DNA from: Candidatus Thorarchaeota archaeon SMTZ1-83
GTDB lineage: Archaea > Asgardarchaeota > Thorarchaeia > Thorarchaeales > Thorarchaeaceae
Direction of reading: 5' to 3'
NCBI GenBank assembly: GCA_001563325.1
Contig: LRSK01000185.1
Location: forward strand, 1 to 15,716
Length of the DNA stretch: 15,716 bases
Numbering within the stretch: position 1 is the stretch's first letter; each line of letters starts with the position of its first letter. Shown one piece after another: positions 10,837-14,445 of this stretch. The position numbers and the translations under genes were made by a program. The notes below the pieces were generated by a model. It was given only the letters and a program-made list of their open reading frames with translations, did no database searches and was not told the origin of the DNA.

Positions 10837-12545
10837 CCAAGAATGTGGAAGTGGCTCGTGCACTGAAAGAGATTGCAATCCTGATTGAAGTGGAGGGCAA
10901 GGACAAGTTCAAGCCGAAGGCCTACATGCGGGCTGTACGGTCTGTCAGTTCGTTGGGGGAAGACATTGAGGCCATTGCACGACGTGGTGAGCTCGAACAG
11001 ATACCCGGTGTGGGGAAGGCAATTGCAGAGAAGATTCAGAGCTACCTGGAAACCGACACTATAGATCTTCTAGAGGAACTTCGAGAGAAAGTGCCTGTCA
11101 AGGTGATGGAGATTGAAGCAATTCCCGGCGTTGGGCCAAAGACAATCAGACTAGTGTACGACCAGCTTGGAGTAACAGACCTAGAGTCACTAGAGATGGC
11201 TGCAAATGATGGTCGGCTTGCTACTCTGAAGGGCATGGGGAAGAAGACTCAGGACCAGATAATTGAGGGAATAAAGCTCGTCAGAGTGGGAATGCGTCGA
11301 AGTCTGCTGGCTGACGCAATGGAAGTTGCAGAGAAGATCGAGCAACACCTCCAAGCTCTACCTCAAGTCAGAAGAGTAGAAGTCGCTGGCTCCTACAGAC
11401 GCAGACGCGAAACCGTTGGAGACCTAGACTTTCTTGTGGATGCAGATGATGTCGAGCCCGTAATGGAGGCATTCGTGACCTACGGAGATGTTGCTGATAT
11501 CATTGCCAGAGGTTCGACAAAGTCTTCAATTCGACTGAAGAGCAATCTCCAAGTCGACCTCAGGATAATCCCCACTGAGAGCTATGGTGCGGGTCTACAA
11601 TACTTCACAGGAAGTGTTGACCATAATGTGCACCTCCGTGCAATCGCGCAGAAGAAGGGGCTTCTACTCAATGAATACGGTCTCTTCAGAGGCGACAAGA
11701 AAGTTGCTGGAGAGAACGAACAGGGCATCTACGAGAAACTGGGTCTTCAGCTAGTTCCCCCAGAGCTACGTGAGGACAGAGGCGAGGTGGAGGCCGCTCA
11801 GGAGGGGAAGCTACCTACTCTTCTCGAACTTGAGAATATCCGCGGAGACCTTCATAGTCACACAGACGCGTCAGACGGCAAGAACACGCTTGAAGAGATG
11901 CTCGAGGCCGCATCAAAGAAGGGCTATGAGTACTATTGCGTTTCAGACCATACCCAGAGCCTGACCATCGCCAATGGGATGGATGAGGAACGCGTTCTGA
12001 AACGAATCGCAGAGATTGACGAGATCAATGAATCAGGTAAGTACAAGATGCGTGTTTTGAAAGGTGCAGAAGTTGACATACTGAGAGGAGGCAAGCTTGA
12101 CCTTGATGACTCGGTCTTGGAGCAACTTGATGTTGTCACATTGTCCGTTCACAGTATGGGGAAGGACAAGAAGGAAATGACAGAGCGCGTCTGCCACGCA
12201 CTAGAAAGCAAGTATGCTCACATACTCGGTCATCCGACTGGTCGTCTTCTACTCAGGAGGCTTCAGCTAGAGATTGACCTAGAGGCTGTCTTTGAGGCTG
12301 CAAGACAAAACAAGGTCATTATGGAGCTCAATGCCCATCCTGAACGCCTTGACCTGAATGATGGCAATCTCAGAGCAGCAACGAGAATGGGACTCAAGAT
12401 TGCCATAAACACAGATGCCCATCGCATTGACCATCTGGACTACATGAGATTCGGTGTGTATCAAGCACGTAGAGGATGGATTACGAAGGAAGACGTTGTG
12501 AACACATATCCGCTTGAAGAACTGTTAAGCATGATTAGGAAATAG
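10833..12545 (+). CDS. polX: DNA polymerase X with C-terminal PHP exonuclease domain
   Basis: The 570 residues equal the usual length of bacterial and archaeal PolX. Residues 1-150 form the 8-kDa-like and helix-hairpin-helix part, with hairpins IPGVGKAIAEKI (57-68), IPGVGPKTIRLV (97-108) and LKGMGKKTQDQI (132-143). The polymerase palm follows: GSYRRRRETVGDLDFLV (186-202) with catalytic D197 and D199, and a third Asp at 242 (LQVDLRI). The PHP metal-dependent phosphoesterase/exonuclease domain starts at about 335, with metal ligands in GDLHSHTDASDG (H341, H343), SDHT (372-375), E413, H440, GHPTGR (H467) and NTDAH (D528, H530). The enzyme fills short gaps in base excision repair, with proofreading or AP-site processing from PHP. 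A TTG start at 10833 is chosen over a GTG at 10806, because GGGAGG is correctly spaced and the start overlaps the previous stop. All catalytic residues are present. Confidence 0.95.
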   Translation: MTKNVEVARALKEIAILIEVEGKDKFKPKAYMRAVRSVSSLGEDIEAIARRGELEQIPGVGKAIAEKIQSYLETDTIDLLEELREKVPVKVMEIEAIPGVGPKTIRLVYDQLGVTDLESLEMAANDGRLATLKGMGKKTQDQIIEGIKLVRVGMRRSLLADAMEVAEKIEQHLQALPQVRRVEVAGSYRRRRETVGDLDFLVDADDVEPVMEAFVTYGDVADIIARGSTKSSIRLKSNLQVDLRIIPTESYGAGLQYFTGSVDHNVHLRAIAQKKGLLLNEYGLFRGDKKVAGENEQGIYEKLGLQLVPPELREDRGEVEAAQEGKLPTLLELENIRGDLHSHTDASDGKNTLEEMLEAASKKGYEYYCVSDHTQSLTIANGMDEERVLKRIAEIDEINESGKYKMRVLKGAEVDILRGGKLDLDDSVLEQLDVVTLSVHSMGKDKKEMTERVCHALESKYAHILGHPTGRLLLRRLQLEIDLEAVFEAARQNKVIMELNAHPERLDLNDGNLRAATRMGLKIAINTDAHRIDHLDYMRFGVYQARRGWITKEDVVNTYPLEELLSMIRK

Positions 12546-12599
12546 AACGTCTACTGCCCACTCCACACTCACCATGACTCTCTCAGAGGGGCAACTCGT

Positions 12600-12616
12600 A
12601 GTCACAATTTGTGACT
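12600..12616 (+). promoter_or_regulatory. 17-bp palindrome, probable operator
   Basis: AGTCACAATTTGTGACT is a perfect inverted repeat with 8-bp arms and one central base. A related half-site, TTCGTGACCC, follows at 12621-12630, exactly 13 bases after TTTGTGACTC at 12608-12617. The group ends about 18 bases upstream of a clear TATA box at 12648, the usual place for an archaeal activator or repressor site. The binding protein is unknown. Confidence 0.5.
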
Positions 12617-12647
12617 CTAATTCGTGACCCTCTGTTGTGGCTCCGCA

Positions 12648-12654
12648 TTATATA
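12648..12654 (+). promoter_or_regulatory. Strong TATA box for the micro-ORF pair
   Basis: TTATATA followed by CT is the best TATA match in the window and stands in GC-richer surroundings. Transcription start is expected near 12678, less than 10 bases before the ATG at 12687. The first micro-ORF would then have almost no leader. That explains why it lacks a Shine-Dalgarno while the second micro-ORF has a perfect one. Confidence 0.55.
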
Positions 12655-12686
12655 CTCATTCTGCGTGTTGTTCATTGTGAAATATC

Positions 12687-12794
12687 ATGGCTCTAGCAAC
12701 CAACTCTCATGAATCATCATCACTGAAGGACCACGCTTACGCGAAGGTCATGACAACTCAGGCTCTCTACTATGAGTACATGTCCCGGAGGTGA
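12687..12794 (+). CDS. Micro-ORF 1, 35 residues, unknown function
   Basis: ATG to TGA encodes 35 residues: a polar Ser/His-rich start (SHESSSLKDH), then a helix-prone, Tyr-rich end (TTQALYYEYMSRR). No family is recognised. Coding is supported by position: a strong TATA box lies at the right distance for a near-leaderless mRNA, and its last codons CGG AGG TGA form the Shine-Dalgarno of the next ORF. Against it is its short length, which chance can produce. It could be a regulatory leader peptide or a functional microprotein. The sequence alone cannot decide. Confidence 0.45.
   Translation: MALATNSHESSSLKDHAYAKVMTTQALYYEYMSRR
12787..12794 (+). promoter_or_regulatory. Perfect Shine-Dalgarno overlapping a stop codon
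   Basis: GGAGGTGA is fully complementary to the archaeal 16S rRNA tail and is the strongest ribosome-binding site in the window. It lies 4 bases before the ATG at 12799. Its last three bases are the TGA stop of the preceding micro-ORF, so termination there would put a ribosome directly on this site. Confidence 0.65.
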
Positions 12795-12798
12795 AAGA

Positions 12799-12891
12799 AT
12801 GAATCAAGTGAAGAACGTCGATGTTCGGCTGTTCAAGCTACGTCAGGCCCGACTCCACGCTGCAGCATCCGCTCGTGCATACATGGCCTAG
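12799..12891 (+). CDS. Micro-ORF 2, 30 residues, basic and Ala-rich
   Basis: ATG to TAG encodes 30 residues with eight or nine positive charges depending on histidine (Lys, Arg, His) and only one acidic residue. An Ala-rich helical end reads RLHAAASARAYMA. It would form an amphipathic basic helix suited to binding nucleic acid or an acidic protein surface, but no family is recognised. The GGAGGTGA 4 bases upstream makes translation likely. The ends of both micro-ORF products share Tyr-Met followed by a small residue (EYMS and AYMA), a weak hint of common origin. It is followed by a hairpin at 12913. Confidence 0.55.
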   Translation: MNQVKNVDVRLFKLRQARLHAAASARAYMA

Positions 12892-12912
12892 ATCAGGCCC
12901 AAGTACTCTGAG

Positions 12913-12940
12913 GTGCTCACGTATCAAGATGCGTGAGCAC
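12913..12940 (+). terminator. 9-bp perfect hairpin between convergent units
   Basis: GTGCTCACG (12913-12921) and CGTGAGCAC (12932-12940) are exact inverted copies around a 10-base loop. On the + strand a pyrimidine-rich CTCTTTCTCC follows shortly after, as expected for an archaeal terminator. The minus side has no T run. It lies 22 bases after micro-ORF 2 and 56 bases beyond the stop of the converging oxidoreductase gene. It could instead be a structured end of a small RNA or a protein-binding site. Confidence 0.5.
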
Positions 12941-12996
12941 ATCGTGCTCTTTCTCCAACAAGACCAACTGTAACGCCAATCCAGAAGAACGTGGCA

Positions 12997-13851
12997 TCAC
13001 AGTTCTGGAGGCCCTGCAGATATCCGCTTCCGGACATCATCTGGTTTCACCGACGAGAGTATGAGATCCAACCACCAGGTGGCGCCGGCCTCATGATATC
13101 CTGCCACATACTCCCTTCTCTTCTCTGGTTTCTTACCAGATGTTATTCCCATTGCCACAACATCAAATGGAGTCTTTGCGGTCCGTTTCGCCTCTATGAA
13201 ATTGAGTATGTCTTTGAAGTCACTCGGAAACAGTCTTTTCCAAGATCCTGCACGCAAGGGGAAGATTCCATCAAGGGTAGCAGCCCTGAGGAACGGCTTC
13301 TTGTTAGGCCACGTCCCTGCAACCCAGATCGGTATCCGAGGCTTTTGAAAGGGCTTCGGGTAGAACTTTGCGTTGTCAATCTTGTAGTACTGACCATCAA
13401 AACTGAATGGTTTGCCACTCCATAGGCCCAGCAGAACCTCTATTCCCTCGTCTAACATTCTACCTCGTATCTTTGTGTCAGACACCTCTCCGAACACTCG
13501 AAACTCTTCTTCCGGTGGGGATCCTAGACCTACTCCCAGAGTCAGTCTCCCGTGTGATAGATGATCCACAGAAACTGTTTCCCTCGCCAATTTCCAAGGT
13601 CTTCGGCGCGGGATGGGTGTGACTGTTGTACCCAGTCCTATGCGTTCGGTGGCTGTCGCCATGGCTGCTAGGCCAATCCATGGGTCCACCATGGGTACTG
13701 GTTTGGTCTTATCCATCTGGATGTGATCCCATATGAAGAAACCGTCCCATCCAGAATCCTCAGCAGTTCTAGCCAAGTCTGCAAGCGTTTCAGCGTAGCC
13801 AAAGGACTTTCCGAAGTTGGGCACATACAGTCCAAATCTCATCTTCCCCAT
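12997..13851 (-). CDS. LLM-class (luciferase-fold) F420/flavin-dependent oxidoreductase
   Basis: The protein has 284 residues from the start chosen. It is a bacterial-luciferase-like TIM barrel. Its opening is MRFGLYVPNFGKS, followed by LARTAEDSGWDGFFIWDHI (about 26-44), the core IGLGTTVTPIPRRRPWKLARE with the DHLSHGRLTLGVGLGS cofactor-phosphate region, and PRIPIWVAGTWPNK near residue 180. In archaea most members use coenzyme F420, as in methylenetetrahydromethanopterin reductase (Mer) and F420-dependent alcohol or sugar dehydrogenases. This one is shorter than Mer-type enzymes and its substrate cannot be assigned. The start is uncertain. The ATG at 13851 has AAGGAG 9 bases before it (CTCCTT at 13861-13866 on +). 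ATGs at 13896 (15 residues longer, no Shine-Dalgarno) and 13842 are alternatives. It converges on the micro-ORF unit. Confidence 0.9.
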   Translation of the reverse strand: MGKMRFGLYVPNFGKSFGYAETLADLARTAEDSGWDGFFIWDHIQMDKTKPVPMVDPWIGLAAMATATERIGLGTTVTPIPRRRPWKLARETVSVDHLSHGRLTLGVGLGSPPEEEFRVFGEVSDTKIRGRMLDEGIEVLLGLWSGKPFSFDGQYYKIDNAKFYPKPFQKPRIPIWVAGTWPNKKPFLRAATLDGIFPLRAGSWKRLFPSDFKDILNFIEAKRTAKTPFDVVAMGITSGKKPEKRREYVAGYHEAGATWWLDLILSSVKPDDVRKRISAGPPEL

Positions 13852-13966
13852 GTCGGGCTTCTCCTTACTCTCTGAAGTGACTATGTCCACCTGCATGAAG
13901 ATAATCTAAGGTAAAAGTTGTGGTTCCTAGGACAGTCAGACTAGCATAAGGAATCAGAATAGTGCT

Positions 13967-14176
13967 CTATTTTCCCCTTATCCCGCTACCGGTGACCGCC
14001 CTCTCATACTCCTTTGATTCGAGAGGGAAGAAGGCGCTGTCCACGACCTTTGAGCAGAAGATCTCTTGTGCGAAAGAATCCCTCTTCCTGCAGTCTGGAA
14101 GTACTTCTCGACGCCTGTCAATCACCAAAGCAGTGACGACCACAGTCGCAACGGCCACCAATAAGACCCAGATCAT
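13967..14176 (-). CDS. Small single-pass membrane protein, 69 residues
   Basis: The ATG at 14176 opens a 69-residue frame with an N-terminal membrane helix (IWVLLVAVATVVVTALVI, residues 2-19) followed directly by DRRR. That fits a short outside end and a cytoplasmic tail of about 50 polar residues holding two cysteines (C29, C41). By positive-inside logic the tail faces the cytoplasm. Frequent AGG and GAG codons resemble the neighbouring genes. GGGGA stands 6 bases before the ATG, and a TATA-like TTTAAA at 14244-14249 (minus strand) would give a leader of about 40 bases. The open frame on the other strand here is judged a shadow. No family is recognised. It fills most of the gap between the oxidoreductase and the tRNA. 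Confidence 0.5.
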   Translation of the reverse strand: MIWVLLVAVATVVVTALVIDRRREVLPDCRKRDSFAQEIFCSKVVDSAFFPLESKEYERAVTGSGIRGK

Positions 14177-14327
14177 CGAGATTCCCCGTCCATTCAGACA
14201 TGAAGCGAGTACATATCCTCACATACCTTTGCCGCCTTTTTGATTTAAACCTTCTTTGACACGGCCTCTTGGAGTCTTGGACCTGCAATGATCCGACAGA
14301 AGAAAGGTGAACCAATCTAACAGGAGA

Positions 14328-14445
14328 TGGTGCCGAGGATGGGATTTGAACCCACGAACTCCTACGAGAACGGATTTCTCAGCGGAGTCTGGCGACTCTG
14401 TTTAGATCTTGAGTCCGTCGCCTTTGGCCACTTGGCTACCTCGGC
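14328..14445 (-). tRNA. tRNA-Leu(CAA) with 32-nt archaeal intron and encoded CCA
   Basis: On the minus strand the acceptor stem is GCCGAGG (14445-14439) with CCTCGGC (14338-14332), discriminator A at 14331 and an encoded CCA (14330-14328). The D stem is GCC/GGC and the anticodon stem is ACGGA (14418-14414) with TCCGT. The loop CTCAAG|A gives anticodon CAA (14411-14409). A type II variable arm (CTC/GAG) and T stem GTGGG/CCCAT around TTCAAAT complete a leucine tRNA that decodes UUG. A 32-nt intron (14376-14407) sits after position 37. Its loop-side CTCA pairs with TGAG near the intron end, leaving 3-base bulges AGA and AAA, a bulge-helix-bulge site for the splicing endonuclease. The mature tRNA has 86 nt with CCA. 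Confidence 0.95.
14376..14407 (-). other. tRNA intron at position 37/38 (BHB-spliced)
   Basis: The 32-nt intron lies between G37 and A38 of the tRNA-Leu. The central helix pairs CTCA (C32-A35) with TGAG inside the intron, and each side has a 3-base bulge cut after its second base. Within the intron GAGTC and GACTC form a 5-bp hairpin with a GCCA loop. The second outer helix of a strict BHB is weak, so this is closer to a relaxed hBH form. Confidence 0.88.

Follow-up and report, generated by a model that had tools for sequence, protein, structure and literature searches.

Tiny proteins encoded or co-regulated with an exporter are known as efflux-pump partners, AcrZ being an example, and rRNA and tuf genes are dispersed families under concerted evolution. 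Very small proteins are known in archaea, among them zinc-finger micro-proteins in Haloferax volcanii, some of which are reported as stress related (PMC6562870, PMC10716476), and a review treats termination-reinitiation coupling and leader peptides, in which short coupled ORFs are separated by gaps of a few nucleotides and stop codons overlap Shine-Dalgarno sequences (PMC12548453). Here we describe a dispersed micro-operon family of Thorarchaeota, apparently undescribed, of which one copy lies in the window, the 15,716-nucleotide stretch of DNA analysed in this study. The Thorarchaeota products share their very small size with the Haloferax proteins, but they have no zinc motif, are encoded by tandem ORFs in a dispersed operon and, among the 227 phylum genomes searched, occur in a single family of Thorarchaeota; the short gaps and the stop-Shine-Dalgarno overlap are those of coupled leader peptides, whereas most units carrying the third ORF (gamma) have no same-strand gene next to them. 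The microproteins are tiny and exporter-linked like AcrZ-type partners, yet hydrophilic, basic and stand-alone in many copies. As with rRNA and tuf genes, paralogs in two genomes (G019 and G020) are more alike than orthologs, the homogenised tract here being the micro-operon including its operator. Searches of open-access full text (most subscription papers lay outside their reach) turned up no account of these operons, and the retrieved portions of PMC11364881 and PMC9258230 contain nothing on it. The family is too short for usual gene finding, occurs in archaea related to eukaryotes and shows coding selection, a stretch of DNA that serves at once as coding sequence and as terminator hairpin, and concerted evolution of dispersed operons (two genomes); it also gives small-protein proteomics definite ORFs to look for.

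The unit in the window follows a PolX gene that matches three Thorarchaeota records, which assigns the contig to Thorarchaeota; the best match (94% identity over residues 130-568) is at locus L001, in the chromosome of isolate bin8 (CP070658.1). An initial annotation, made from the letters of the window, had read a self-contained micro-ORF transcription unit in the 451-base gap after PolX, and this reading was correct: the palindrome, the TATA box, the ORFs of 35 and 30 codons, GGAGGTGA and the 3' hairpin with its pyrimidine tract all lie where it placed them (Table 1). Its view that the full set is unlikely by chance was borne out by 2000 dinucleotide-preserving shuffles of the gap, none of which contained every part; a palindrome with 8-bp arms arose in 2.9%, a 9-bp hairpin in 1.5%, a TATA box in 3.4%, GGAGGTGA in 0.05% and tandem ORFs of at least 29 codons in 7.8%, and a single ORF of at least 29 codons is expected by chance (83% of shuffles). 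The comparative data below are the stronger evidence that the unit is real, and together with the shuffles they rule out chance alone as the origin of its parts. From the spacing, transcription would start about 22-25 nt past the TATA box, and the GTGAA block of the short leader that results is kept in the units of many relatives. The units of relatives that were inspected open with a matching GTnACA-n3-TGTGAC palindrome, with some variants.

Table 1. Features of the micro-operon and of its neighbours in the window.
Feature	Sequence	Position	Strand	Remark
PolX gene		10839-12545	+	upstream neighbour of the micro-operon
Operator palindrome	AGTCACAATTTGTGACT = AGTCACAA-T-TTGTGACT	12600-12616		read in sequence
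Operator core	GTCACAATTTGTGAC	12601-12615		read in sequence
Extra half-site and TATA-flanking block	TTCGTGACCC...GTGGCTCCGC	12622-12646	+	similar block in relatives
TATA box	TTATATAC	12648-12655	+	read in sequence
Predicted short 5' leader	GTGAAATATC	12677-12686	+	placed from spacing
Alpha micro-ORF	MALATNSHESSSLKDHAYAKVMTTQALYYEYMSRR-stop	12687-12794	+	35 codons plus TGA
Shine-Dalgarno	GGAGGTGA	12787-12794	+	overlaps the RR and stop codons of alpha
Beta micro-ORF	MNQVKNVDVRLFKLRQARLHAAASARAYMA-stop	12799-12891	+	30 codons plus TAG; C-terminal family motif eroded, RR lost
Gamma stub	...SEVLTYQDA-stop	12892-12936	+	lacks start codon and N-terminal half; compared with 32 gamma ORFs
Predicted terminator hairpin	GTGCTCACG-N10-CGTGAGCAC	12913-12940	+	9-bp perfect stem, arms 12913-12921 and 12932-12940
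Pyrimidine tract	CTCTTTCTCC	12947-12956	+	many relatives have T-rich tracts after the hairpin
Luciferase-like oxidoreductase gene		12997-13896	-	downstream neighbour of the micro-operon
tRNA-Leu(CAA) gene with intron		14331-14445	-	beyond the oxidoreductase gene; Rfam and intron-allowing tRNA scan

A full unit of the family consists of the operator and TATA box, alpha (~34 aa), beta (~30 aa) and then either an acidic gamma ending in EVLALEAT-stop or an MFS exporter in its place. Promoter matches, from the palindrome to the first codons, were found in 4 of 4 genomes of the genus, and the corresponding stretch of L034 matched 38 of the 47 family genomes at E ≤ 0.01, a few of these matches being short or operator-only and the sole match of one genome (G038, 23 bases) being chance. 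The window promoter, with its ATGGCTCTA-like start, aligns to 10 listed copies at 73-90% over about 100 bp. Nearly all promoter copies run into alpha, usually then into beta and often into gamma. Profiles built from 13 alpha, 14 beta and 10 gamma members (threshold E ≤ 0.01) matched 43, 46 and 28 of the 227 phylum genomes, respectively, several matches being weak (E 0.001-0.01); all of these genomes lie inside the 47-genome family, each member of which is matched by alpha or beta, and no profile matched the other 180 genomes. The alpha profile gave up to 12 matches per genome, with alpha and beta partly counted separately.

With L079, L117, L129, L136, L143, L147, L148, L150, L151, L152 and the second promoter match of L001 excluded, the micro-ORF sets comprised 92 alpha ORFs, 32 gamma ORFs and 96 candidate beta ORFs, 3 of which were dropped at a later stage. 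The window and L001 were left out of the alpha statistics, and L026 and the later ORFs of L071 and L146 out of the beta statistics as not beta. In 93 promoter-found units, the first ORF has 28-42 codons in 90 and is cut by a contig end in 3; seven loci were dropped from this count, namely promoters without a motif ORF (L117, L129), loci with no ATG at the expected place (L143, L148) and other genes or chance matches (L150, L151, L152). Alpha and beta have a common C-terminal motif, (I/V)ST[DEK]A(I/L)xxAYx(Y/F)RR-stop (ISTDAITYAYFRR), with variants such as AYxTVVR-stop, and gamma ends in EVLxLEAT-stop. Median net charges are +5 (alpha), +5 (beta) and -2 (gamma). Gaps between the ORFs are mostly 4-9 nt, and the stop codon of alpha commonly lies inside the Shine-Dalgarno sequence of beta.

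Searches of protein databases gave no match in Pfam (alpha and beta of the window, five relatives), in NCBIfam (five relatives) or in PADLOC and PHROGs (alpha and beta of the window; alpha, beta and gamma of L066), and alpha and beta had no relative in the PDB that gives a functional hint. Among 5.8 billion predicted proteins, one 40-residue gamma matched just one entry, identical to it, in a search that finds close relatives only. None of the proteins searched matched a curated family of toxin-antitoxin or phage-defence genes.

The pN/pS ratio was calculated over non-overlapping, nearest between-genome pairs at 3-35% divergence, excluding the first codons (7 in alpha, 4 in beta, 2 in gamma) and the last two of alpha and beta. 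It was 0.42 for alpha, 0.39 for beta and 0.54 for gamma, with pN below pS in 32 of 33, 30 of 30 and 7 of 7 pairs. Strongly conserved residues each use 2-6 synonymous codons: among the alpha ORFs, an alanine column (89/92) uses four and a serine column (66/92) six. The first codons of alpha are instead conserved as DNA (GCT in 81 of the 88 codon-2 alanines), and its last arginine codon is mostly AGG across the 92 ORFs. Gamma has conserved residues of its own. By these measures alpha, beta and gamma look translated, with clear coding selection family-wide.

Covariation was assessed in an alignment of 32 sequences including the window (31 distinct rows), in which the last codons of gamma make up a 12-pair stem with 88% of cells paired. 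Seven pairs have changes on both sides, giving 21 such cells against 6.5 in shuffles; none of 500 shuffles reached 21 (kinship among the sequences keeps this count from being a probability), and slid versions of the stem reached at most 11. Two divergent copies (L144, L145) were left out of this alignment for their different hairpin, which makes its stem from other bases and retains the LEAT residues. The hairpin is thus a real, predicted terminator of dual use, read as codons and as stem. At the 3' end of the window unit (12887-12955) the fold z was -3.25. The alpha and beta region of 11 units had z from -1.2 to +2.0, which is no fold signal, and Rfam matched neither the window unit nor those at 5 further loci; structured RNA beyond the terminator is disfavoured on these grounds, as is the initial annotation's suggestion of a small RNA with ORFs. 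The same two results, along with the family-wide coding selection and the codon freedom, weigh against a wider reading in which the unit acts as DNA or RNA, as an operator decoy or a small regulatory RNA whose ORFs are incidental. That reading would account for the window and L001, where synonymous and nonsynonymous sites are equally conserved (see below), and for within-genome promoters in G021 and G002 that are far more alike than the ORFs, but we consider it quite improbable.

Genomic context was counted for 95 units (L143, L148, L150, L151, L152 dropped). The loci group into recurrent sites. One lies between PolX and tRNA-Leu: PolX precedes the unit at 12 loci, among them the window and the divergent L144-L146, and in the window, L001 and others a tRNA-Leu follows in antisense orientation. 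Another is beside cluster-2 and GNAT-like genes, with cluster 2 at 13 loci. At the remaining recurrent sites an MFS-like gene lies downstream, by clustering in 37 of the 95 units, and one representative of each of two clusters is MFS_1 by Pfam. The next feature (an ORF of at least 90 codons or a tRNA) has the opposite orientation in 25 of the 32 gamma-type units, and the other 7 have a same-strand ORF that starts 59-252 nt after gamma. Other copies adjoin tRNA-Leu or tRNA-Ser, and one copy in G020 (L119) has the RNase P RNA gene close by on the other strand. Spread by integration beside tRNA genes was considered and dropped, the tRNA-Leu(CAA) neighbours looking like one shared site.

These contexts bear on a model of cis-acting leader cistrons, in which alpha and beta, as leader peptides or as starters of translational coupling, would control a downstream MFS gene, for example by ribosome stalling at the conserved C-terminus, and the stand-alone copies would be orphaned leaders. 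In L068, L073, L120 and L130 the exporter starts 5-8 nt after the end of a beta-like ORF, the conserved residues directly precede the stop codon, the gamma stop falls within the terminator hairpin, an arrangement possible in attenuators, and the seven gamma-type units with a same-strand ORF fit as well. MFS-type units do have the same-strand gene that a leader or attenuator needs. However, the predominance of opposite-strand features after gamma speaks against a cis leader in gamma-type units, gamma carries conserved residues of its own, and three of the most divergent copies (L144-L146) are gamma-type at the PolX site, as the ancestral state would be. We regard the model as unlikely. At the window itself, the peptide-regulated leader offered by the initial annotation finds no same-strand gene to regulate, the next gene being on the minus strand.

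As to function, we favour microproteins that act in trans and are controlled by stress or export. Microproteins are the best-fitting reading because coding selection is family-wide, the codons are free, the ORFs give no fold signal and the next features lie mostly on the opposite strand. Of the three readings in the initial annotation, the microprotein pair was thus the best at the family level, although the unit in the window is not just a pair but a worn three-ORF operon: gamma follows in many relatives, only its stub is left in the window, and the hairpin noticed there is the end of the lost gamma. In the model we propose for intact copies, a putative regulator would bind the GTCACA-n3-TGTGAC palindrome and the half-sites beside the TATA box, transcription would start about 10 nt before alpha and end at the hairpin formed by the last codons of gamma, and the three ORFs would be translated in order by reinitiation across the short gaps. 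The products, two paralogous basic microproteins (alpha, beta) and one acidic one (gamma, EVLALEAT), most likely act together in trans, either in a small complex with one another or as partners of one shared target; the stress or export response they serve would also include the MFS exporters found in gamma's place, and the MFS company suggests induction by stress or toxic compounds. We give an even chance to the whole of this account, a worn copy of a dispersed micro-operon whose products act jointly in trans in such a response.

The operator pattern (≤2 mismatches) was found at 23 places in four genomes, some of the two-mismatch places being weak and chance-like and one overlapping another on the opposite strand, versus none for the reversed pattern. 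The operator also lies upstream of genes for a repeat-rich protein and for a membrane protein (L160, L171, L174, L170, L173); the repeat-rich protein of L160 has no Pfam match. Operator targets beyond the micro-operons may possibly form a wider stress regulon. At further places taken from profile matches, 58 of 60 have a motif ORF, a count that is circular by choice. Related micro-ORFs occur by eye behind GGTTTG...CAAACC-like promoters in L220, L224, L229, L233, L235, L246, L254, L256, L257 and L259, six of these ten having a LEAT- or WEAT-type gamma, and behind TAATAC-like promoters in L222, L225, L228, L236, L245, L247 and L252, seven copies in which no gamma of either type was found. Several regulons thus seem to own a micro-operon copy. 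A more ambitious form of the trans-acting reading, which we hold only tentatively, is that Thorarchaeota use one output cassette, made up of two or three coupled microproteins, under the control of at least three different operators, and that gene conversion keeps it alike across sites in some genomes; the peptides would make a new regulatory or effector complex shared by several regulons, in which an exporter could take the place of the third. In L089, L098, L114 and L118 a second promoter-like start lies ~260-500 bp into the unit and is followed by a further alpha-beta pair, with GGTCAC repeats at that start in several of the four.

Copies within single genomes appear to have been homogenised in some lineages. 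G019 has five copies and G020 four; within either genome they are 88-98% alike over the whole unit, operator through terminator, while their flanks are unrelated. Four copy pairs sit at orthologous sites common to both genomes, and these orthologs are only 82-85% alike. As likeness within each genome exceeds orthologous likeness between them, the pattern is that of old copies homogenised as a block, that is, concerted evolution, probably by gene conversion. For promoters at two unrelated sites within a genome, compared in five genomes, those of G021, G002 and G026 are 98%, 93% and 96% alike, above any same-site copy elsewhere, and the corresponding ORFs are 50%, 46% and 88% alike; the promoters of G029 and G030 (87% and 80%) are no more alike than orthologs. 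Homogenisation is not general across genomes.

The sharp start of G019 and G020 copy homology at the operator, and its end just past the terminator, would also suit a mobile or selfish repeat, a DNA element of roughly 400 bp that spreads and keeps ORFs only for its own upkeep. The near-identical copies, however, include the four orthologous-site pairs with long shared flanks, which are therefore old copies kept alike, not fresh insertions; no terminal inverted repeats or target-site duplications were seen by eye in the flanks of nine copies, and L066 alpha had no tblastn match in plasmids or phages. The sole pattern match in a viral contig sits within a phage gene, without a micro-ORF, and a viral origin was likewise rejected on that account. 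We find such a repeat hard to credit.

The window copy was compared base by base with L001. The whole unit differs at 37 of 342 bases (11%), against 36% in the 50 bases just upstream (12546-12595, 18/50) and a PolX pS of 0.36. Mismatches number 3 of 37 in the operator (12596-12632), 1 of 29 in the TATA region (12633-12661), 9 of 108 in alpha, 13 of 93 in beta and 6 of 50 at the 3' end, and the L001 hairpin has one mismatch. L001 keeps both reading frames open over their full, unchanged length, as the initial annotation expected of a real unit, but the synonymous-biased change that it proposed as a test fails in this pair: differences fall at 6 of 45 synonymous and 16 of 150 nonsynonymous sites, pN/pS is 2.29 in alpha and 0.52 in beta, and over both ORFs pN and pS are not different from a ratio of 1 (Fisher p 0.6). 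Neither plain decay nor protein constraint explains equal rates together with low divergence in this pair; low divergence that lacks codon bias would be compatible with a recent exchange of the block and equally with constraint at the level of bases.

Window alpha retains T, A, L, Y and RR of the family motif with a net charge of +1, against +3 to +9 in 90 relatives, and window beta retains part of the motif. Where other gamma ORFs have EVLxLEAT-stop overlapping the terminator, the window has the stub and the hairpin. In the sister genome G001 the beta profile finds nothing at E ≤ 0.01, whereas it matches the other 46 of the 47 family genomes. With gamma lost and alpha and beta drifted in this lineage, the window copy has probably been reduced or no longer works at the protein level. 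The extreme form of this, compatible with the other readings and applying to the window copy only, is a dead remnant in which promoter and terminator matter and alpha and beta drift. Loss of the gamma start and of the beta RR, the low alpha charge, the silent beta profile and the near-equal pN and pS all suit a remnant, but both frames are open in two lineages and the unit is far less diverged than the bases upstream; we rate it as less likely than not.

Homology between the window and L001 stops directly after the hairpin and restarts at the tRNA-Leu gene, and 12942-14326, which includes the luciferase-like oxidoreductase gene, has no match in L001. The tRNA-Leu(CAA) gene was overlooked by the default tRNA scan and detected by Rfam and the intron-allowing scan. 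The L001 genome has one further strong promoter match, upstream of an MFS-like gene, and the ORFs there are atypical too.
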